Origin: Labilibaculum filiforme
GTDB taxonomy: Bacteria > Bacteroidota > Bacteroidia > Bacteroidales > Marinifilaceae
Length of the DNA: 44,161 nt
NCBI RefSeq assembly: GCF_002843315.1
Contig: NZ_MVDD01000027.1
Span: 1 to 44,161, forward strand
Direction: 5' to 3'
Below the pieces are notes generated by a model. It did not search any database and had not been told where the DNA came from. It saw nothing but the letters and a program-made list of their open reading frames with translations. Positions within the stretch are counted from its first letter, which is position 1, and each line of letters begins with the position of its first letter. The position numbers and the translations under genes are program-made. Below are positions 31,696 through 44,161 of the stretch, piece after piece.

Positions 31696-32985
31696 ATGAT
31701 TGAAGATAAAACATTCTTGAAAAAATATAGTCGCAAATTAGTACTCTTACTTTTTGTAGGCTTATTTTCTTATAATTCCTATGCTGCAAGTTTATTAATT
31801 CAGATGGATGATACTCAGAAGAATCATCTGAAGGCTTATGGGATTGCTTTTTGGACACTGGAAAAAAAGTATGAGATTCATTGGTTGCTAAATTATCGCG
31901 GCGGGTCTTTTTTATTGCCTTTCCAGAAAGAAATTCAAGACGAATGTCAGATACGTGGCGTTAGTTTTTCCGTTCTCAGCGATATTTCAACCCAGCAAAT
32001 ATTGACAGAGATTTCGAGTGATGAAGTGAATATGGATGCTGTTAAACTCGAAAAATCACCTTTAATAGCTGTTTATTCTCCCAAAGGTAAAAAACCTTGG
32101 GATGATGCTGTTACTATGGCACTTAGTTATGCCGAAATTCCCTACGATATAATATATGATGATGAGGTAATGACTGGAAAGTTGTCGAAATATGATTGGT
32201 TGCATTTACATCATGAAGATTTTACGGGTCAGTTTGGAAAATTTTATGCCTCCTATCGGAATATGAAATGGTATAAAGATGAAGTGCAGTCGAATATGGA
32301 AATGGCGAATCGTTATGGTTTTGCTAAGGTTTCCGATTTAAAAAAAGCTGTGTCGATTAAAATAAGAAACTTTGTTGAGGCTGGAGGGTTTTTGTTTGCC
32401 ATGTGCTCTGCTACCGATACTTTTGATATCTCATTGGCTGCGGGAGATCATGATATTTGTGATGCCGTATTCGATGGAGATCCAATGGAACCAGATGCTC
32501 AGTCGCATCTTGATTTTTCACAAACTTTCGCTTTTCAGAATTTTACCATCGAAACAAATCCTGGTATATACGAGTATTCGGATATCGACGTAACTTTAAG
32601 CAGGAAGCTAAAGCAGGAGGAGGACTATTTTTCTCTATTTGACTTTTCGGCGAAATGGGATCCTGTGCCAAGTATGCTGTGTCAGAATCATAAAAATTTG
32701 ATAAAAGGTTTTATGGGGCAGACAACAGCTTTTAAATTAGAATTAATTAAGCCTAATGTGCTTGTAATGGGCGAAAATAAGGCTGCCGGCGAAGCTCGGT
32801 ATATTCATGGAAACTTAGGAAAGGGAACCTGGACTTTTTATGGTGGACACGATCCGGAAGATTACCAACACTTGGTTGGAGATCCACCTACCGATCTTAA
32901 TTTGAAAAAGAATTCGGCAGGTTATCGACTAATTCTGAATAATGTATTATTTCCAGCGGCAAAAAAGAAAAAACGTAAAACCTAA
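31696..32985 (+). CDS. Exported protein of uncertain function (homologues sometimes called asparagine synthetase B)
   Basis: The 429-residue product has a likely signal segment (KLVLLLFVGLFSYNSYAA) and a conserved body with HLKAYGIAFW, WLLNYRGGSF, VNMDAVKLEKSP, YDWLHLHHEDFTGQFGKFY, GFLFAMCSATDTFD and a C-terminal TWTFYGGHDPED. From memory, similar Bacteroidota proteins are often labelled asparagine synthetase B. That label is hard to defend: there is no Cys-2 glutaminase nucleophile, no ATP-pyrophosphatase SGGxDS motif, and the protein appears exported. Features such as GGGFLFAMC with a later histidine recall class I amidotransferase-like folds, but this is a weak inference. It lies 47 bp after dnaB. 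Confidence 0.7.
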   Translation: MIEDKTFLKKYSRKLVLLLFVGLFSYNSYAASLLIQMDDTQKNHLKAYGIAFWTLEKKYEIHWLLNYRGGSFLLPFQKEIQDECQIRGVSFSVLSDISTQQILTEISSDEVNMDAVKLEKSPLIAVYSPKGKKPWDDAVTMALSYAEIPYDIIYDDEVMTGKLSKYDWLHLHHEDFTGQFGKFYASYRNMKWYKDEVQSNMEMANRYGFAKVSDLKKAVSIKIRNFVEAGGFLFAMCSATDTFDISLAAGDHDICDAVFDGDPMEPDAQSHLDFSQTFAFQNFTIETNPGIYEYSDIDVTLSRKLKQEEDYFSLFDFSAKWDPVPSMLCQNHKNLIKGFMGQTTAFKLELIKPNVLVMGENKAAGEARYIHGNLGKGTWTFYGGHDPEDYQHLVGDPPTDLNLKKNSAGYRLILNNVLFPAAKKKKRKT

Positions 32986-34273: not shown

Positions 34274-36175
34274 ATGAATAAAATTTTAATTACCACTCTA
34301 TTATTGATTCTATTTGTAGGAGCTGTAACAGCGCAAACTGTTATTGTTACAAATCCTCAATGTAAAGGTGGTACTGGTGAAATATCAGTTTCTGTTAATC
34401 CATCTGGAACATATTTTGTTGGATTACAGGTTGGTGGAGTTTGGTATGGTTATGAGTATTTTTCATCTAATCATACTTTTTCAAACTTGCCTGAAACGAC
34501 TTACCAAGTTATCGTGTATCGTAGAATAAATGCATGGAATATTATTTATAATGGAAACCATACTATTGTTGCATCGGATACTCAAAATCCTGTTTTTCAA
34601 AACCCTCAAACAGATATTGCCATAAATGCATCTGGTGATGCATGTGGAGAGATCGTTGATTATGTTATTCCTGTGGCTACAGATAATTGTTCTGCTTATG
34701 TTGGAACTTTAGCCGGATTTTCTTACTTGGGAGAATTAAATAATCATACCTATTACTATTCCAATGGAACAGCTACGGCACAAAATGCTATGTTGGCGGC
34801 GGCTAATGTGGGAGGCCATTTAGTAACTATTACCAGTCAGGCCGAAAATGATTTTGTCGATAACTTAGTTGATGGTGTTTGGATAGGCTTAAACGATGCT
34901 GCCAGCGAAGGTACTTTTGTTTGGTCTAACGGAGAAGCTGTTTCTTTTACCAATTGGAATGGTGTTGAACCAAATGATTATGGTACTGGCGAAGACTATA
35001 CCGAAATGTACAGCACTGGTAAATGGAATGATTTGCCAGATACATACACTAGAAGATATGTGGTAGAATTTGAAGGAGCTTTGGTTACGCAAACCACAGG
35101 ATTACCTTCAGGTTCTTTATTTCCTGTGGGTACTACGGTAAATACGTTTGTAGCAACCGACAATGCTGGTAATACTGCAACGCATAGTTTTAGTGTAATT
35201 GTTAAGGATATTACTCCTCCTGCCATTTCTGCTTTACGGGCAGATTATTATGATGGTAGAAGTTTCGATACATTTAAAGAAACCTTAGAGGTTGATGAAT
35301 TAAACTACTCTTGGGGAACAGGTGCACCAGAATCGACTTTGGTTGGAACTGATAATTTTTCAGTGCGATTTCAAGGGAGTGTTCAGGCTGTTAATGCAGG
35401 AACTTATACCTTTTATACAACTTCAGACGATGGTGTTCGTCTGTGGGTTGCAGGACAACAAGTCGTAAATAATTGGACGGATCATGGAACTACTACAAAT
35501 TCTGGTACAATTACTTTGTCGGCAGGACAAATTGCTCCAATTGTATTGGAGTATTATGAGCGTGGTGGTGGTGCAGTTATCAAATTAGAATGGGTGGGGC
35601 CAGGCGTTTCACGTCAATTTGTAACTAGTAATGGTTCTGGATCAGGGGTCTGTCAAGATGTTACTGTGGATGTTAGTACTACAGGTTCTTATAATCTTAC
35701 CGTAGATGAGGTGGATCCTGGATATTCGGACGAGTGTGGAATCGCTTCACGAATTCTTAGTAAAACGACTTTTACTTGTAATGATTTAGGTGCAAATTCG
35801 GTGACTCTCACGGTTACTGATGTAAATGGTAATTCTTCAAATTGTGTAATAGATGTAATTGTGATTGGAGGACCAGCAATTGATCTTGCTGTGCTTGGAG
35901 CTACTGAATGTGTTGGTTCCGATGCCGATCTTACCATACAAGCCAGTGAGAGTGGGGTTGTGTATACTGCCTATAAAGATGGAGTCCAAATTGGAAGCTC
36001 TGTAACGGGAAATGGTTCGGATATTCTTTTAAGTATTTCCACAACAGGCTTTTCGGAAGGAAATAATACAATTAGTTTTAAAGCACAAAGTGGCGCTTGT
36101 TTTTCCGACCTCACAAATACTGCAGTGCTTGTATTACAAGGTATTCCAACTCCAACTGGAATATATCATGAGTAA
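34274..36175 (+). CDS. Exported multi-domain protein: HYR with nested C-type lectin, PA14, GIYHE C-terminus
   Basis: The 633-residue product has a signal peptide (about 1-20, ending VTA). Domains in order: a SprB-like N-terminal beta domain (22-100); a HYR domain split in two (104-139, ending VATDNCS, and 270-312, VTQTTGLPSGS to SFSVIVKD); inside it a C-type lectin domain (about 141-268, with GGHLVTITSQAEND, WIGLNDAASEGTFVWSNG, NWNGVEPND and KWNDLP); a PA14 domain (321-452, DDGVRLWV, GAVIKLEW); a second HYR-like unit (458-531); and a beta domain to about 622. It ends in PTPTGIYHE. No type IX secretion C-terminal domain, membrane helix or LPxTG is visible. Carbohydrate binding is inferred from the lectin and PA14 folds. 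It is first in a cluster of three similar genes. Confidence 0.85.
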   Translation: MNKILITTLLLILFVGAVTAQTVIVTNPQCKGGTGEISVSVNPSGTYFVGLQVGGVWYGYEYFSSNHTFSNLPETTYQVIVYRRINAWNIIYNGNHTIVASDTQNPVFQNPQTDIAINASGDACGEIVDYVIPVATDNCSAYVGTLAGFSYLGELNNHTYYYSNGTATAQNAMLAAANVGGHLVTITSQAENDFVDNLVDGVWIGLNDAASEGTFVWSNGEAVSFTNWNGVEPNDYGTGEDYTEMYSTGKWNDLPDTYTRRYVVEFEGALVTQTTGLPSGSLFPVGTTVNTFVATDNAGNTATHSFSVIVKDITPPAISALRADYYDGRSFDTFKETLEVDELNYSWGTGAPESTLVGTDNFSVRFQGSVQAVNAGTYTFYTTSDDGVRLWVAGQQVVNNWTDHGTTTNSGTITLSAGQIAPIVLEYYERGGGAVIKLEWVGPGVSRQFVTSNGSGSGVCQDVTVDVSTTGSYNLTVDEVDPGYSDECGIASRILSKTTFTCNDLGANSVTLTVTDVNGNSSNCVIDVIVIGGPAIDLAVLGATECVGSDADLTIQASESGVVYTAYKDGVQIGSSVTGNGSDILLSISTTGFSEGNNTISFKAQSGACFSDLTNTAVLVLQGIPTPTGIYHE

Positions 36176-36283
36176 TGTTTTGTTAATCAACAATCTAAAT
36201 CTATTTGTTTGGCAAGCGTAAAGTTCAGAAAAAATTAAACAAAATCGTTTTTTAGGCGTATGTATCAATTAAGAATAATTAAC

Positions 36284-36291
36284 TATTTTTG
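36284..36291 (+). promoter_or_regulatory. Predicted -7 box for the second adhesin-like gene
   Basis: TATTTTTG fits TAnnTTTG, 43 nt before the ATG at 36335, so this gene probably has its own promoter although it follows its neighbour by 159 bp. Confidence 0.45.
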
Positions 36292-36334
36292 GCCCCGACT
36301 ATTTAATCTGCCTGATATCTCTGAAAATTAGCCT

Positions 36335-39300
36335 ATGAAAGATTCTACTCAAAATATTTTTATAAAATTATCTTTACTGATTTTCTTTCTTTCTCTAAGT
36401 GGTTCCCTTTTGGGGCAGACTGCTACTTTAGTACATCCTACAACTAGCGTAAGTAAGGATGGAAGTATTACGATAAGTGATTGGTCTGGTAATAAAAGAA
36501 GAATTGTGATAGATGGAGATTGGCAAGTGAAAAATGTAGTGGATTTTAGCGGGTTAGATGAGGGAGATTACGTATTTGAGTATTGGGAGAAGGTAGGAAA
36601 AAATTGGATGAAAATTTCAGAGGAGACTTTAAGTCTTGTAGCGGGGGCTTTATCGTATTGTTCTTCTTCTGGAAATATAAGTTATGATACTAGCATCACA
36701 GGAGTAACTATCAATACGATAAATAAAGTTACACCAAGTAATAAAACGAGTGGTTATAATGATTTTACCTCAGAATCAACAGATGTTATTGTTGGAAATT
36801 CTTACAATTTAACAGTCAATTTAAATACTGATTATGGCGCATATACAGTATATGCAGTTGCTTGGATTGACTGGAATCAAAATGCAGACTTTGAGAATTC
36901 CGAAATTTATCATTTAGGAACCGCCTATAATACGACTAACGGACCAACAAGTGGATCTCCTTATTCAATTTCTGTTCCGTCAAGTGCATTGTTGGGTGCT
37001 ACTCGTATGCGAATTTCTGCAAAATGGGATGTCGAGCCAACAGCTTGTGAGAATAATTTTGATGGTGAAGTCGAAGATTATACTTTAAATATAGTTTCTA
37101 ATGGTGCAATGCCAGTAGCAAAATGTAAGGATCAAACAATTCAATTAGATGCTTTAGGGAATGCTAGTATAAGTGCAGCAGATATAAATAATGGGAGTAG
37201 TGATGTTGAAACTTCTACAGCTAGTCTTATTTTAAGTTTGGATAAAAGTACTTTTGATTGTTCAGATATTGGGACTAATGATGTAGTGTTATCGGTTGAG
37301 GATGAGGATGGAAATGTATCAACTTGTACCGCCACAGTTACCGTTCAAGATCAGGTAGCTCCATCGTTGCTAAATTTGAATGCCGACTATTACACAGGAA
37401 TAAATTTTGGCGAGTTAAAATATTCAGAATCGGTATCGGAGATTAATAATAGTTGGGCATATGGCTCACCTAATGAGAGTCTTGTAGGGCTTGACTATTT
37501 TACTATTCGTTACAGTGGAACTTTCGTTGTTCCAGTAGCTGGAAATTATACTTTTTATACCAACTCCGATGATGGTGTACGACTTGTAGTTGATGGTACC
37601 ACCGTTGTTGATAATTGGAATTACCAAGCTCCAACAGAAAAACAGGGCACTATAAATTTGGCTTCAGGACAACACACCATTAAGTTGGAATATTTTGAAA
37701 ATTCAGGTGGTGCAGTTATTGAATTGAGATGGGAATCGGTAGATGCAGGGGTTTCCAAGCAGATTTTTTCTAAAACGTCTATTTTAAATAGTACTGTAAT
37801 TGAAACTACTTTGAAATTAAATACATCTGGTACTGCAACACTTGCTGCGACAGATGTAGATCCAGGTTTTCTTGATAATTGCGGGGTAACTTCTAGAACT
37901 CTCAGTAAAACAAATTTTACAACTGCAGATGTAGGAACGAATACGGTAGTATTAACGGTTAAAGATGATAGTGGCAATTCTACTAGTATTAATGTAACAG
38001 TAATTGTTGAACCTTCCACTCCTGAAGTCGTTTTGTCCGTATCCCCAAGTTCAATTATTGAGAATGGTGGAAACACTTTTGTTACAGCTACATTAACAGG
38101 AATTGCTTCAACCGATGTTCTTGTTAATCTAATTATGTCTGGGACGGCTTCAACTTCAGATTATTCAATATCCAAACTACAAATTAAAATACCTGCGGGG
38201 AGTTTAAGTGCTAGCGTCACGATTAGTTCGGTGAATGATGCTATTATTGAAGGAAACGAAATATTGAATGTTAACATTTCAAGTATTACAGGAGGTACTG
38301 GTGGTGGAACTCAAATGGTGATGATCACAATAGTTGATGATGATTTTCCATCTGAAGAATCAATTGAAGTTAACAGACAAGCAAACGGACTTTATGATAC
38401 GCCTGAAAAATTAGTCAGTGATGTTTTAGTTACGGGCTGTTTAAAAGCAGATAATATCACTTATTCAGGTGATGACAAAGATGGAGTTGGTTATTTTAGT
38501 GCAGGGGATTCTGATTTTCCATTATCATCAGGAGTGATTATATCTACAGGTAAAGTCCGAAATGCTGAGGGAGAAAATGATGGAGGTAATAAAAGTGATA
38601 ATATTGATGGGTCTGCTTATGATCCAGATGTTTTTCGTTTGGCAGGATATTCAGCGCAAGATGCGCAAATTTTAGAGTTTGATTTTGTTCCTGCAGGGGA
38701 TCAATTAGAGTTCAATTATATATTTGCATCTGATGAATATCATGAATTTGTTGGAAGTGCATATAATGATGTGTTCGGTTTTATTTTAAGTGGTCCTGGA
38801 ATTAATGGTTCGTTTTCAAATGGGGGTGAAAATATTGCTTTAATCCCTAGTAGTACTGATAATGTATCGATAAATAATGTAAATAGGAGTTCAAATTCTT
38901 TGTATTATGTAGATACTCCTGCTGATTTCGCCACTAGCTTTGATGGAAGGACAACGGTTTTAACTGCTCGTGCAAGTGTTACTCCTTGCGAAACTTATCA
39001 CATTCGTTTAATTATTTCCGATGTGTCGGATAATAAGATAAATTCAGCCGTTTTTCTTGAGGCAGAAAGTTTTAAATCAAACGAAGTGGAAATTCAAAAT
39101 GGAATTGGTGTTGAGGACGATGTTGATTTTATGTATGAAGGTTGTGGCGGTAGTTACATTAAATTTGTTCGAAAAGAGGATTTTGAGGATGAAATGACTT
39201 TCGAATTGAATATCTCAGGTACTGCTGCAAATGGAGTTGATTATTTGTATGTGGATCAATATGGAAATCAAATTGGTGATGGTAAAATTCCAACTACCGT

Positions 39301-40507
39301 AACTTTACCAGCAGGTTTAGATGAATTGGTTTATTACTACAAAGCCGTTTCTGATTCAAATATTGAGGGTGATGAAGAATTGCGCTTGTCTTTTTTAAAG
39401 AATTGTCCTTGTTCTGCTCCAGATTATTACGAAAAAGTGGTGACAATAATTGATATTCCTGAAATTCAGGCTTCTCCAACTAGTCTGGTGTCTTGTTTAG
39501 GTGCCACTCCAGTTGCAACAATTACTATCGATTTGAAGTCTGGATTAGATCCATCTGACTATCAGTATAGTATAGATGGTGGTTCTTTTCAGGATAATAA
39601 TGTTTTTACTTTGAGCAATCCTACTGTTGGAGAATCACATACAGTGACGGTACAGGATCGATTTGCTTGTCAGTCTGCTAGTTTCGAAATTGTTATGCCA
39701 GCTGTTACTCCAATTGCCGCAGAAGCTGGTCCTTCTAAAACTATTTGCGAGGGAAAAACAGTAAATCTGGATGGAAGTGGAGGTATCTATTACGAATGGT
39801 CATGTTCCCCCAAATCTGGAGAGACATATTTGAGTAATATAAATGCATCAAATCCAACTGTTTCTGCTGATATCCCTTTTGGTACATATACTTTTACGCT
39901 AACAGTTAAAGAGTCTAACTCAGCAACAGCTTCTTGTGTCGATACAGATTTTATGGTTCTTACGGTAAACGAAAATTCACACTTCTCAATAATATCCGAT
40001 AAAACAGAATATTGCAGTGGTGAGGTAATTAATTTGTCTTCTACTATTTTGAATAGTAGTGGTGGCGATTCTTATTCTTGGACTCCTCTTGGTGGTATTG
40101 ATAGCCCAACTTCGGCTAATACTACAGCGAGTTATAGCACAACCGTGTTAAGTGCTAAAGATTTTTCTCTTACAATTACGAAATCGAATGGTTGTAAAAA
40201 TACAGAGTACATATCGGGAGTATTAATTAATCCGCATCCTGTTTTGTCTCTTAAAGCAAGCAGTAATACATGCTCTAATGGAAGTGATGGGGTATTGAAT
40301 GTTAATGTTACGGGTGGCACTCGAATGGGTACTAGTCCATTCTATGATTTTTCTTGGAGTCATAATGGTTCTTTAAATTCACCAGATGCTACAGGACTTG
40401 GTGCTGGGAACTATACAATTACTGTTACCGATGCAAAATCATGTTCAAGTATTGCAACTTATGATGTTGCGACCGAACCAGAACCTAAAGGAATCTATCA
40501 TGAGTAG
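36335..40507 (+). CDS. Giant exported adhesin-like protein with PA14, Calx-beta and choice-of-anchor L domains, GIYHE C-terminus
   Basis: The 1390-residue product has a signal peptide (1-28). Domains in order: a SprB-like N-terminal domain; GEVED domain (about 150-253, WIDWNQNADFEN, GEVEDYTL); HYR-like unit (259-338, CKDQTIQLDALGNASISA); PA14 (345-480, NSDDGVRLVVDG) set between HYR-like units; second HYR-like unit (488-558); Calx-beta (565-669); choice-of-anchor L (about 688-912, LEFDFVPAGDQLEFNYIFA, NDVFGFILSGPG); a second Calx-beta-like domain (918-1040); two or three SprB/PKD-like modules (1045-1300); and a last SprB repeat (1305-1380). It ends EPEPKGIYHE. It is paralogous to its upstream neighbour in the N-terminal, PA14 and C-terminal parts. 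It probably acts at the cell surface in adhesion. No recognised sorting domain is present. Confidence 0.85.
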   Translation: MKDSTQNIFIKLSLLIFFLSLSGSLLGQTATLVHPTTSVSKDGSITISDWSGNKRRIVIDGDWQVKNVVDFSGLDEGDYVFEYWEKVGKNWMKISEETLSLVAGALSYCSSSGNISYDTSITGVTINTINKVTPSNKTSGYNDFTSESTDVIVGNSYNLTVNLNTDYGAYTVYAVAWIDWNQNADFENSEIYHLGTAYNTTNGPTSGSPYSISVPSSALLGATRMRISAKWDVEPTACENNFDGEVEDYTLNIVSNGAMPVAKCKDQTIQLDALGNASISAADINNGSSDVETSTASLILSLDKSTFDCSDIGTNDVVLSVEDEDGNVSTCTATVTVQDQVAPSLLNLNADYYTGINFGELKYSESVSEINNSWAYGSPNESLVGLDYFTIRYSGTFVVPVAGNYTFYTNSDDGVRLVVDGTTVVDNWNYQAPTEKQGTINLASGQHTIKLEYFENSGGAVIELRWESVDAGVSKQIFSKTSILNSTVIETTLKLNTSGTATLAATDVDPGFLDNCGVTSRTLSKTNFTTADVGTNTVVLTVKDDSGNSTSINVTVIVEPSTPEVVLSVSPSSIIENGGNTFVTATLTGIASTDVLVNLIMSGTASTSDYSISKLQIKIPAGSLSASVTISSVNDAIIEGNEILNVNISSITGGTGGGTQMVMITIVDDDFPSEESIEVNRQANGLYDTPEKLVSDVLVTGCLKADNITYSGDDKDGVGYFSAGDSDFPLSSGVIISTGKVRNAEGENDGGNKSDNIDGSAYDPDVFRLAGYSAQDAQILEFDFVPAGDQLEFNYIFASDEYHEFVGSAYNDVFGFILSGPGINGSFSNGGENIALIPSSTDNVSINNVNRSSNSLYYVDTPADFATSFDGRTTVLTARASVTPCETYHIRLIISDVSDNKINSAVFLEAESFKSNEVEIQNGIGVEDDVDFMYEGCGGSYIKFVRKEDFEDEMTFELNISGTAANGVDYLYVDQYGNQIGDGKIPTTVTLPAGLDELVYYYKAVSDSNIEGDEELRLSFLKNCPCSAPDYYEKVVTIIDIPEIQASPTSLVSCLGATPVATITIDLKSGLDPSDYQYSIDGGSFQDNNVFTLSNPTVGESHTVTVQDRFACQSASFEIVMPAVTPIAAEAGPSKTICEGKTVNLDGSGGIYYEWSCSPKSGETYLSNINASNPTVSADIPFGTYTFTLTVKESNSATASCVDTDFMVLTVNENSHFSIISDKTEYCSGEVINLSSTILNSSGGDSYSWTPLGGIDSPTSANTTASYSTTVLSAKDFSLTITKSNGCKNTEYISGVLINPHPVLSLKASSNTCSNGSDGVLNVNVTGGTRMGTSPFYDFSWSHNGSLNSPDATGLGAGNYTITVTDAKSCSSIATYDVATEPEPKGIYHE

Positions 40508-40857: not shown

Positions 40858-43800
40858 TTGATAAGACTTTTACACATAAAAATTTTCATACTGGTTATTC
40901 TGATTACTTTGGTAAAAGTTGATCTTTATGCTCAAACAGTATTATCTTCTACGGAAGATGTTTGTGCTGGTGAGTTGAGACAATATAAAGTAGAAGGATT
41001 AGCTGGTTCGACAATTTATTGGTCCGTAGAAGGGGGAGCTATATATAATGGAGGTTCTCCTGTTGCTGATGAGGATGCAACCGCATCTGGAATTCAGTAC
41101 AGCGAGACTGTTGTGTCTGGTGAAAGTATAATTGGAATTTTATGGAATGTTACGGCAGGAGATTATAAGCTTACAGCTTATGAAGAAACATCGAGTCTAT
41201 GTGTTTCGTCTGATATGGAGTTAACTGTTACTGTAAGTGATTTACCTGATCAAAGTCTTAGCTTAAGCGATCCTTCTATTTGTCCTTCAGGAACCGCATC
41301 AATACTACTTTCCAATAGTGAATTAGGTGTTGATTATCAATTGCGTTTAAATAGTGATGATAGTAATGTTGGATCTGTTGTTGCAGGAACAGGAGGTACT
41401 ATTACTTTCGCTGTAACTCCTGCAGTTACTACAGTGTATAATGTATATGCTAAAGGAGCTAGTTCGGATTGTGGAGTAGAATTGGATGATTTAAGTACGG
41501 TAAGAGTTGAAGATCTAGTTGATCCTATTGCAATTTGTAAAGATATAACGATTCAGTTGGATGCAAGTGGAAATGCTACAATAACAGCAGCGCAAATAGA
41601 TAATGGATCAAGTGATAACTGTGGTATCGCATCAATGTCATTGTCAAAGACAGATTTTAATTGTGATGATGTTTCTACTAATTTGGTTGTTGCTTCAACT
41701 GACGATTATGCTGTTAGTATAAAAGTATGGCCTATTTCAGTTAATCCTGTTGGCACTACTTGCGAATATGGCTATAATTATAAAGTAACGGTTGGTTATG
41801 ATATAAGTTTTTCTGGTTCAAATATTCCATCAAATTTGTATACACTACAAGGGACTTTAGATTGTGGTAATACTTATTTTAATTTACCTAATGGTGGTGG
41901 AAGTGGAACGGTTGAGACATCACAGAATTGGAGGAGTTCTTCTGATTGTGCAACAATCACACCTGAGATTTTGGGTTGTACAGATGCTTCTATAAAAATT
42001 AATGGACCCGGTATTCCTGATCAAACTATATCTTCACCATTATCATCTCCTAATACCATTGAACTGACAGTAGTTGATAATTCTGGGAATACCTCAACAT
42101 GTAGTGCAAACGTGTCTGTTGAGGATAATATTGCACCAACGGCGATATGTAAGGATATTACAATTCAATTGGATGCAACAGGAAATGCAAGTATTGTAGC
42201 CAGTGATATTGATGGAGGATCAAGTGATGCTTGTGGAATATTAAGTATGACTGCAAGTATGACCTCATTCACCGCGGCTAATGTTGGAGAAAATACAGTA
42301 ACATTAACAGTAACTGATAATAACAGTAATGTATCTACTTGTGATGCAATAGTAACGGTTGAAGATGATGTGGCACCAACGGCGGTTTGTCAAGATATTA
42401 CAATTCAGCTAGATGCAAGTGGTAATGCTAGTATTACAGCATTACAAATAGATAATGGATCAAGCGATGCTTCTGGGATTTCAGATTTAAGTGTAAGCCC
42501 AAGCACATTCAGTTGTTCAAATGTTGGACCTAATACAGTAACATTAACGGTAACCGATAATAATGGTCAGGTTTCCACATGTACTGCAACAGTAACGGTT
42601 GAAGATGTAACCGATCCAGTAACACCAACATTAGCCAATATAACAGGTGAGTGTTCAGCAACAGCGGTTGCACCAACTACGACAGATGTTTGTGGAGGTA
42701 CAATCACAGGAACAACAAGTGATCCATTAATTTATACAACGCAAGGGACTCATGTAATTACATGGAACTTTGATGATGGTCATGGAAATGATATTGATGT
42801 AATACAGAATGTAATCATTACTGATGCTACAGCACCGGTTGCAGATTTGGCTTCTTTGCCAAACGTAACTGCAGAGTGTGAGGTGACTAGTTTAACAGCA
42901 CCAAGTGCAACAGATAATTGTTCTGCTGTAACAGTAACTAACGATGCAAGTTTACCAATAACTACTCAAGGAACTACAGTTGTGACTTGGACTTATAAAG
43001 ATGTAGTTGGGAATACCAGTACACAAACACAGAATGTAATCATTACTGATGCTACTGCACCAGTTGCAGATTTGGCTTCTTTGCCAAACGTAACTGCAGA
43101 GTGTGAGGTAACGACTTTAACTGCACCAAGTGCGACAGATAATTGTTCTGCTGTAACAGTAACTAACGATGCAAGTTTGCCAATAACTACACAAGGAACT
43201 ACTGTTGTGACCTGGACTTATAAAGATGTTGTTGGGAATATCAGTACACAAACACAGAATGTAATTATTACTGATGCTACTGCACCAGTTGCAGATTTGG
43301 CTTCATTGCCAAACGTAACTGCAGAGTGTGAGGTGACTAGTTTAACAGCACCAACAGCAACAGATAATTGTTCTGCCGTAACAGTAACTAACGATGCAAG
43401 TTTGCCAATCACTGCACAAGGCACTACAGTTGTTACCTGGACTTATAAAGATGTAGTTGGGAATACCAGTACACAAACACAGAATGTAATCATTACTGAT
43501 GCTACTGCACCGGTTGCAGATTTGGCTTCTTTGCCAAACGTAACTGCAGAGTGTGAGGTAACGACTTTAACTGCACCAAGTGCAACAGATAACTGTTCAT
43601 CAGTTACAGTAACTAACGATGCAAGTTTGCCAATCACTGCACAAGGAACTACTGTTGTTACCTGGACTTATAAAGATGTTGTTGGGAATATCAGTACACA
43701 AACACAGAATGTAATCATTACTGATGCTACTGCACCGGTTGCAGATTTGGCTTCTTTGCCAAACGTAACTGCAGAGTGTGAGGTGACTAGTTTAACAGCA

Positions 43801-44161
43801 CCAAGTGCAACAGATAACTGTTCATCAGTTACTGTAACTAATGATGCAAGTTTGCCAATTACAGCACAAGGAACTACTGTTGTTACTTGGACATATAAAG
43901 ATGTTGTTGGGAATACCAGTACACAAACACAGAATGTAATCATTACTGATGCTACAGCACCGGTTGCAGATTTGGCTTCATTGCCAAACGTAACTGCAGA
44001 GTGTGAGGTAACGACTTTAACTGCACCAAGTGCGACAGATAATTGTTCTGCTGTAACAGTAACTAACGATGCAAGTTTGCCAATAACTACACAAGGAACT
44101 ACTGTTGTTACCTGGACTTATAAAGATGTTGTTGGGAATATCAGTACACAAACACAGAATG
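40858..44161 (+). CDS. Third adhesin-like exported protein, HYR-rich, runs off the window
   Basis: An open frame without stop codons runs from a TTG at 40858 to the window end (1101 complete codons). From this TTG the product starts with a signal peptide (MIRLLHIKIFILVILITLVK, cleavage near LYAQ), and no ATG fits as well. Domains in order: a beta-rich N-terminal part (to about residue 217); three HYR-like units of about 80 residues (41509-42120, 42121-42360, 42361-42600) of the type CKDITIQLDASGNATITA; a divergent HYR unit (to about 42822); then 75-residue HYR units in tandem. The first 80-residue unit is split by a 123-residue insertion (41683-42051). The C-terminus is not in the window, so a sorting signal cannot be judged. 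Confidence 0.82.
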   Translation, partial: MIRLLHIKIFILVILITLVKVDLYAQTVLSSTEDVCAGELRQYKVEGLAGSTIYWSVEGGAIYNGGSPVADEDATASGIQYSETVVSGESIIGILWNVTAGDYKLTAYEETSSLCVSSDMELTVTVSDLPDQSLSLSDPSICPSGTASILLSNSELGVDYQLRLNSDDSNVGSVVAGTGGTITFAVTPAVTTVYNVYAKGASSDCGVELDDLSTVRVEDLVDPIAICKDITIQLDASGNATITAAQIDNGSSDNCGIASMSLSKTDFNCDDVSTNLVVASTDDYAVSIKVWPISVNPVGTTCEYGYNYKVTVGYDISFSGSNIPSNLYTLQGTLDCGNTYFNLPNGGGSGTVETSQNWRSSSDCATITPEILGCTDASIKINGPGIPDQTISSPLSSPNTIELTVVDNSGNTSTCSANVSVEDNIAPTAICKDITIQLDATGNASIVASDIDGGSSDACGILSMTASMTSFTAANVGENTVTLTVTDNNSNVSTCDAIVTVEDDVAPTAVCQDITIQLDASGNASITALQIDNGSSDASGISDLSVSPSTFSCSNVGPNTVTLTVTDNNGQVSTCTATVTVEDVTDPVTPTLANITGECSATAVAPTTTDVCGGTITGTTSDPLIYTTQGTHVITWNFDDGHGNDIDVIQNVIITDATAPVADLASLPNVTAECEVTSLTAPSATDNCSAVTVTNDASLPITTQGTTVVTWTYKDVVGNTSTQTQNVIITDATAPVADLASLPNVTAECEVTTLTAPSATDNCSAVTVTNDASLPITTQGTTVVTWTYKDVVGNISTQTQNVIITDATAPVADLASLPNVTAECEVTSLTAPTATDNCSAVTVTNDASLPITAQGTTVVTWTYKDVVGNTSTQTQNVIITDATAPVADLASLPNVTAECEVTTLTAPSATDNCSSVTVTNDASLPITAQGTTVVTWTYKDVVGNISTQTQNVIITDATAPVADLASLPNVTAECEVTSLTAPSATDNCSSVTVTNDASLPITAQGTTVVTWTYKDVVGNTSTQTQNVIITDATAPVADLASLPNVTAECEVTTLTAPSATDNCSAVTVTNDASLPITTQGTTVVTWTYKDVVGNISTQTQN
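42823..44161 (+). repeat. 225-bp tandem repeats in a 450-bp higher-order pattern
   Basis: Units start at 42823, 43048, 43273, 43498, 43723 and 43948 (last cut by the window at 214 bp), exactly 225 bp apart, each coding for 75 residues beginning DATAPVADLASLPNVTAECE. Odd units read GTGACTAGTTTAACAGCA (VTSLTA) and GGGAATACCAG (GNTS); even units read GTAACGACTTTAACTGCA (VTTLTA) and GGGAATATCAG (GNIS). Units 2 and 6 are almost identical. Confidence 0.95.

Follow-up and report, generated by a model that had tools for sequence, protein, structure and literature searches.

The window analyzed here, the whole 44,161-nucleotide contig NZ_MVDD01000027.1 of Labilibaculum filiforme (RefSeq assembly GCF_002843315.1), carries toward its 3' end two neighboring genes, g1 and g2, whose secreted products share the tail P-x-P-x-GIYHE directly before the stop codon. 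We propose, with a probability of about 0.65, that this is a docking tail that binds the N-terminal domain (N-domain) of the next subunit in a multi-subunit surface fiber, a physical contact that we infer from sequence comparisons. GIYHE is one version of a family of position-specific C-terminal tails on secreted proteins that lack the C-terminal domain (CTD) of type IX secretion system (T9SS) substrates, and no lone sorting tag. In support of docking, the tail of protein n is linked to the N-domain of protein n+1, and gene fusions remove tail and N-domain together. Of the roles that the original prediction for this window had put forward (sorting, processing, or anchoring signal, or docking peptide), only docking finds support, and a shared sorting or processing signal is disfavored because the tails differ by cluster position and follow the N-domain of the next protein.

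In the arrangement we propose, g1 and g2 would be alternative tip adhesins of one surface fiber, and the last ~9 residues of either would bind the PKD-like N-domain of the third protein, g3. The g3 tail would in turn bind the g4 N-domain, and so onward down to the last subunit, which would carry PKD repeats and a type B CTD as well as an N-domain, with its PorP/SprF carrier encoded next. With the base held by this PorP/SprF partner, the result would be a fiber of tip, stalk, and base, and the cluster would amount to a giant SprB-like adhesin split into pieces, joined noncovalently by a tail-to-domain code. The CTD-less subunits may cross the T9SS by riding on the one CTD-bearing base, a guess that we offer less firmly than docking itself and because it fits one CTD per cluster.

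Two adjacent secreted proteins end in the same tail

Candidate tip protein 1 (g1; 34274..36175, plus strand; 633 amino acids [aa]) begins with a likely signal peptide (34274..34333, cut before Gln21), carries C-type lectin, HYR, and PA14 domains, and ends IPTPTGIYHE, with its tail P-T-P-T-G-I-Y-H-E (36146..36172) followed directly by a TAA stop. Candidate tip protein 2 (g2; 36335..40507, plus strand; 1390 aa) likewise begins with a likely signal peptide (36335..36415, cut before Gln28), contains GEVED, PA14, choice-of-anchor L, and PKD domains together with weak SprB-like matches, and ends EPEPKGIYHE (tail P-E-P-K-G-I-Y-H-E, 40478..40504) directly before a TAG stop. These signal peptide cuts, and that of g3 below, were judged by eye. 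The shared P-x-P-x-GIYHE pattern of the original prediction stands, as does its choice-of-anchor L domain in g2 (E = 3e-64), although the g2 end, which it had spelled EPKGIYHE, has a fuller form that fits the pattern.

Neither protein matched a CTD of the ~70- to 100-residue type A, B, or C kind that marks T9SS substrates in Pfam or NCBIfam, as had been claimed, the presence of a type C model in these libraries being unchecked. Unlike sortase substrates, which carry an LPxTG-like motif, a membrane helix, and a basic tail, neither contains LPxTG by a simple pattern, again as claimed, and both chains end in the tail itself. Both also lack a lipobox by a similarly simple pattern, which found none in proteins P0001-P0003. 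The further claim that both lack a membrane helix held for g2, whose best 19-residue Kyte-Doolittle mean past the signal peptide was 1.49 (usual cut, 1.6). In g1, residues 524-542 (VIDVIVIGGPAIDLAVLGA) reached 2.04, but this stretch covers a beta strand and a GGP linker in an immunoglobulin (Ig)-like region, and a membrane helix there is doubtful, as judged from hydropathy rather than by a dedicated predictor.

The third gene, g3 (40858..44161, plus strand), is present as its start and first 1101 codons, truncated by the contig end. Behind a likely signal peptide (40858..40932, plus strand, cut before Gln26) lies the proposed acceptor, a PKD-like N-domain (residues 30-149; 40945..41304, plus strand; profile match, E = 4.7e-21), and HYR repeats are also present. 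The same N-domain profile gave no match in g1 and internal matches only in g2. The g3 N-domain would be the partner of both GIYHE tails.

The cluster continues beyond the window

The window ends within HYR repeats (HYR_4C) of g3, and a second contig of the same genome, C2, ends in the same repeats. Judged from gene order, the window end appears to join C2, the assembly splitting the cluster, which continues on one strand throughout both on C2 and in a one-contig relative (G033). The C terminus of the third gene, which the original prediction had wanted inspected, appears to lie on C2 and reads KPTPSGINY. The tails that follow are LPDTGDITFN (g4), VPATTGITTD (g5), SPKTSDISID (g6), KPIISIINLN (g7), and KPTISGAITLN (g8).

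The cluster thus laid out holds nine separately encoded secreted proteins, with a CTD on the last only: g9 (842 aa) coincides with a CHU_C place, its ortholog matches TIGR04131 and PF13585 (type B CTD), and it is adjacent to g10, a PorP/SprF gene. Each of g3 to g9 has one PKD-like N-domain right after the signal peptide, whereas the two tips lack it there. The tail proteins carry signal peptides by a crude hydrophobicity test, and those scanned (g1, g2, the g3 part, g4, and g8) are without a CTD. Elsewhere, the genome has the T9SS translocon gene sprA (SprA_N match) as well as 12 PorP/SprF and 14 CHU_C places, 8 of the 14 in open frames of at least 1500 aa. A co-occurring processing gene had been suggested as a companion of the tag; by eye, no candidate enzyme was seen among the cluster genes read.

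GIYHE ends in the genome and the family

The GIYHE codon pattern occurs at three places in the 5.2-Mb genome, two of which are the g1 and g2 ends; the third, on contig C22, closes a short open stretch that runs antisense to a methyltransferase gene, and a reversed control pattern gave no places. In the family (56 genomes), G[IVM]Y[HN]E-stop was found at 33 places, versus 10 for the reversed control. Long open frames terminate at 17 of the 33: 15 have at least 500 codons open upstream, and 2 are full genes of locus L038. The other 16 places either close short open stretches or are read through (of two G050 places outside this reading, one was separately seen to be short). All 17 long-frame ends have GIYHE, encoded by ten different DNA spellings and preceded by variable residues, so selection appears to act on the GIYHE peptide.

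Other family members have GIFxE-like ends. In all, 42 tips were counted in 18 family genomes, one to five per genome, ending P-x(1-3)-G-[IVL]-[FY] plus up to five residues; they comprise 17 GIYHE tips in eight genomes and 25 tips in ten further genomes. One G050 tip, of 2342 aa, is unlinked to the cluster. Five of the 23 genomes with the cluster are without counted tips, namely, G028, which has no socket; G002, G004, and G037, which are cut by contig ends; and G025.

These counts bear on two findings that the original prediction would have taken as reasons to abandon the tag. Its restriction to these two genes is true of this genome but not of relatives, in which similar tails sit on different bodies, and a mere local duplication of gene ends is disfavored because the two gene bodies differ and relatives carry such tails on other bodies. 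A genome-wide sorting tag was also considered and rejected, the genome having only two GIYHE gene ends and no such tails near its other PorP/SprF and CHU_C places. In stretches of up to 20 kb, less than the whole genome, around the 12 PorP/SprF and 14 CHU_C places outside the cluster, a loose tail pattern matched 7 of 58 secreted-like open reading frames, approximately the background rate, and none of the seven resembles the cluster tails by eye.

Tail type and the N-domain of the next gene

A strict tail pattern, P-x(2-5)-[IV]-x(1-4)-stop, was scored on secreted genes directly upstream of a gene that starts with an N-domain. At the loci that defined the pattern, 52 of 65 such upstream genes carried it, versus 27 of 137 other secreted genes; at new loci, the tail was present in 24 of 45 upstream genes versus 25 of 173 control secreted genes (P = 2e-7, Fisher test). 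Of the 45, several that missed the pattern have a longer tail form (e.g., PTTGPIYHIPNNFEL), and 17 of the 25 tail-matching control genes themselves begin with an N-domain.

Tail similarity was also regressed on four other similarities across 105 junctions (56 groups, 5084 pairs), which remained of 110 after the removal of one with unknown residues and four duplicates. The standardized coefficients were 0.276 for the next N-domain, 0.043 for the rest of the next gene, 0.194 for the protein's own C-domain, and 0.027 for its own N terminus, and when next genes were shuffled within each locus, which keeps relatedness, 0 of 500 shuffles reached the observed value. Excluding the Labilibaculum loci gave 0.297 for the next N-domain (0 of 500 shuffles). 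A family set had 102 junctions, of which 21 came from loci already used in the first set, and gave corresponding coefficients of 0.159, 0.096, 0.192, and 0.207; within-genome shuffles again gave 0 of 500. By these measures, tail type appears to follow the next N-domain beyond shared descent, albeit more weakly in the family set.

Individual junctions add to this picture. Similar N-domains follow [LI]PxxxDI[EN]Y tails borne by three distinct bodies (G026 and G030, with one body type; G038; and G040), 13 of 16 tails preceding the base read KPxI[STN] by hand count, and between G032 and G034 the g7 tail is altered where the next gene is altered. A strict one-to-one code within the genus was rejected: the G034 tail facing g8 is unlike the G032 tail facing a g8-like neighbor, so the code looks looser than one-to-one.

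Fusions and joint losses of tail and N-domain

G028, a genome of the same genus, has no upstream tip genes; its third gene encodes a single 1775-aa protein whose front resembles a G027 tip and whose rear corresponds to g3 from residue 115, without the g3 N-domain. All three GI[YF][HYFL]E-stop places in this genome end short stretches, and no long gene with a tip tail was found there. At the sequence level, plug and socket are missing together.

A second comparison comes from the other end of the proposed fiber. Nine loci of other lineages (L095, L098, L104, L107, L110, L207, L208, L219, and L235) have, before a base with its own N-domain, a 214- to 242-aa middle protein whose tail reads, for example, SPIYQY. 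At L109 and L120, the N-domain at the start of the CTD-bearing base is by eye of the middle type, and the tail and the second N-domain are both gone. At L093, middle and base are fused, and a tail-like NPLPRSSRIY still stands before the internal N-domain; g9 itself is a single chain in which a C-domain and a linker like ALPNTLFGDY precede a second N-domain.

Distribution and cluster plan

Profile A1 (g4- to g8-like proteins) was found in 23 of 56 family genomes and 33 of 393 genomes of the order. N-domain profile A5 matched 87 of 393 genomes in the order, spread over 57 of 207 genera, and in a phylum sample it matched 21 of 395. Of the 141 N-domain matches listed for the order, 81 are in open frames no longer than 700 aa; those of the phylum sample, minus the L. 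filiforme genome, sit inside long chains, in open frames of 710-5126 aa.

Each cluster lies on one strand; the final secreted protein usually has a T9SS CTD and is followed where checked by PorP/SprF, which is the next gene after the base at L098, L108, L109, and L116. Other clusters of the order follow the same plan with different tails. At L103, for example, an ice-binding-like tip ends PTTSAIYHQ, a middle protein ends PTTSPIWHN, and the 279-aa base consists of an N-domain and a type B CTD. Twelve bases or base fusions were scanned, of which 10 matched CHU_C (type B), that of L115 was type A, and that of L093 had no match.

Some variation in tips and tails was noted along the way. At L100, L103, L111, and L115, the tip body consists of ice-binding-like domains (PF11999) with a PKD_6 domain behind them. 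Another kind of tail, RP-x-[ILMV] plus a longer proline-rich end, was seen by eye on 332- to 399-aa proteins before the middle subunit (L093, L095, L097, L098, L104, L107, L109, L110, L120, L207, L208, and L235), and RPxxIK-like ends were seen, also by eye, on giant proteins preceding several of these.

Predicted structures and mode of docking

AlphaFold predictions were made for two single chains, a g9 fragment and g8, and both N-domain models are low-depth predictions. In the g9 model, the second N-domain is complete, its seven strands including a first strand of its own (confidence, about 80-87); the linker before it has a predicted local distance difference test (pLDDT) score under 50, and the preceding domain is poor. 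In the g8 model, the N-domain fold is complete (72-91 over the first five blocks), the C-domain is middling, and the tail is unpaired and without secondary structure (pLDDT, about 60). The best Foldseek matches of g8 were tandem Ig/FnIII proteins, including fragments of Aureispira GhpA (9flv and 9flu; template modeling score, about 0.3), and a sequence search of solved structures gave weak matches only (best E values, 0.012 and 0.016). One N-domain gave a match below the cutoff to Pfam PKD_6, starting at position 5 of the 82 in that profile.

Given the two complete N-domain models and this PKD_6 match, complementation of a missing strand was dropped as the main mechanism. Because the N-domains are modeled as complete without it, a docking tail would have to add at an edge or groove; probably, albeit less firmly than docking as such, it would join as one more strand at the edge of a domain that is whole without it.

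Alternative explanations

A T9SS targeting role is the best placed of the alternatives, and we hold it unlikely. Each CTD-less protein would be recognized separately through its tail by the translocon or the cluster PorP/SprF, which would suit the signal peptides of the tail proteins, their lack of a CTD where scanned, and a cluster shared with one type B CTD protein and PorP/SprF in a genome with sprA. Tails within one cluster nevertheless vary by position and follow the next N-domain, tail and next N-domain vanish together in fusions, and the near-background 7 of 58 matches beside the other PorP/SprF and CHU_C places include, by eye, nothing alike. True donor-strand complementation, in which the N-domain would be short of a beta strand that the tail supplies, comes next and strikes us as likewise unlikely. 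By eye, the tails do look like the linker plus initial strand found in tandem PKD repeats, and the g8 tail is unpaired in its model, but both N-domains examined are modeled, at low depth, as complete without the tail, and the subthreshold PKD_6 match to one N-domain starts at position 5 of 82. It is less likely still that the tail is a functionless leftover of an interdomain linker after giant adhesins were split into several genes. The tails look, by eye, like the PKD/Ig repeat linkers of giant proteins, and the phylum sample has the same domain within long open frames; a leftover would not be expected to keep GIYHE through ten nucleotide spellings at 17 ends, to recur as the same tail kind on different tip bodies, or to track the N-domain of its neighbor. 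Finally, the exact C-terminal position and conservation of the tail could suit a site of processing, ligation, or anchoring for an enzyme or cell wall partner. We regard this as very improbable given the absence of LPxTG and lipobox by simple patterns, the absence by eye of a candidate enzyme among the cluster genes read, and a tail sequence that varies by position.

Several observations also weigh against the docking proposal. In the family set, a protein's own N terminus and own C-domain outpredict the next N-domain, and shared descent is strong there because own domains predict the tail better than the neighbor does; moreover, all of the regression and shuffle figures are nominal, since related loci are not independent and the shuffles leave some dependence. 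Both AlphaFold N-domains are complete and the g8 tail is unpaired. Several middle subunits of the family are missed by the N-domain models, the L115 base has a type A CTD, and the fused L093 protein has no Pfam CTD match. In G025 (L256), the g3-like gene has an acceptor N-domain with no adjoining tip, and none was found by the tail pattern.

Relation to known surface systems

Short terminal segments join the subunits of type V (Mfa1/FimA) and chaperone-usher pili into a fiber with a tip and a base. The cluster differs from these in that no usher, chaperone, or lipobox was seen (proteins P0001-P0003 are without the lipoprotein signal peptide of type V subunits by the simple pattern), the N-domain is complete in models, and the base is a T9SS protein. 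In multi-enzyme assembly lines, a C-terminal docking peptide picks the N-terminal domain of the next protein; here, by contrast, the partners are extracellular and Ig-like, and the sequences are unrelated. PEP-CTERM, MYXO-CTERM, and other sorting tags are short conserved C termini on many different secreted proteins, whereas the tails described here lack a terminal membrane helix or basic cluster and vary by cluster position. GhpA of Aureispira, fragments of which are among the best g8 Foldseek matches, is a Bacteroidota surface filament protein; its fragments are numbered up to residue 5009, so it is a single giant polypeptide, unlike this cluster, and we know of no short C-terminal tails in it.

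The SprB-type gliding adhesins of Flavobacterium johnsoniae likewise have a type B CTD gene adjoining PorP/SprF, and a PorP/SprF partner has been proposed to hold type B CTD proteins, according to PMC12618676 and PMC9143113. The cluster shares with them a type B CTD gene, PorP/SprF, and a T9SS translocon (g9, g10, and SprA_N), a combination that does not extend to g1 and g2 themselves. In SprB-type adhesins, however, one long chain holds repeats and CTD; adhesive repeats and a CTD were not found in one polypeptide here, where nine secreted proteins have the CTD on the last and short tails otherwise.

The cluster PorP/SprF proteins (g10, at L070 489-1547; also L246, L253, and L257) have a C-terminal tail with a single cysteine, reading ISCPKF and then SHED or TNED. 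This is reminiscent of F. johnsoniae SprF, whose C-tail cysteines bind the gliding track (PMC12635249). In more distant clusters, 7 of 8 PorP/SprF proteins checked lack cysteine in their final 34 residues.

We think it possible, at slightly less than even odds, that these clusters represent a new class of fiber, defined by a tail/N-domain code, hitchhiker export by the T9SS, and exchangeable lectin, choice-of-anchor L, or ice-binding-like tips that share a plug such as GIYHE, and found in many families of the order. The literature covered, which included PMC12635249, PMC10202324, PMC10994853, PMC12618676, and PMC9143113 in partial text and left subscription papers, e.g., on sprCDBF, outside the search, yielded no account of CTD-less tail-bearing clusters or of such fiber building. 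If the proposal is correct, it would give many secreted Bacteroidota proteins without a known sorting signal a route to the surface, and the T9SS could export a multi-subunit fiber with a single CTD. It would also provide a readable code for which proteins assemble together, with predictions for every such cluster, and tip adhesins could be exchanged by keeping a nine-residue tail.

A conserved neighbor of the cluster

Upstream in the window, positions 31696-32985 encode a 429-aa protein that adjoins dnaB and has no Pfam match. Relatives retain this protein upstream of their clusters (e.g., L036, 3477-4766, and L125, 6300-7589).

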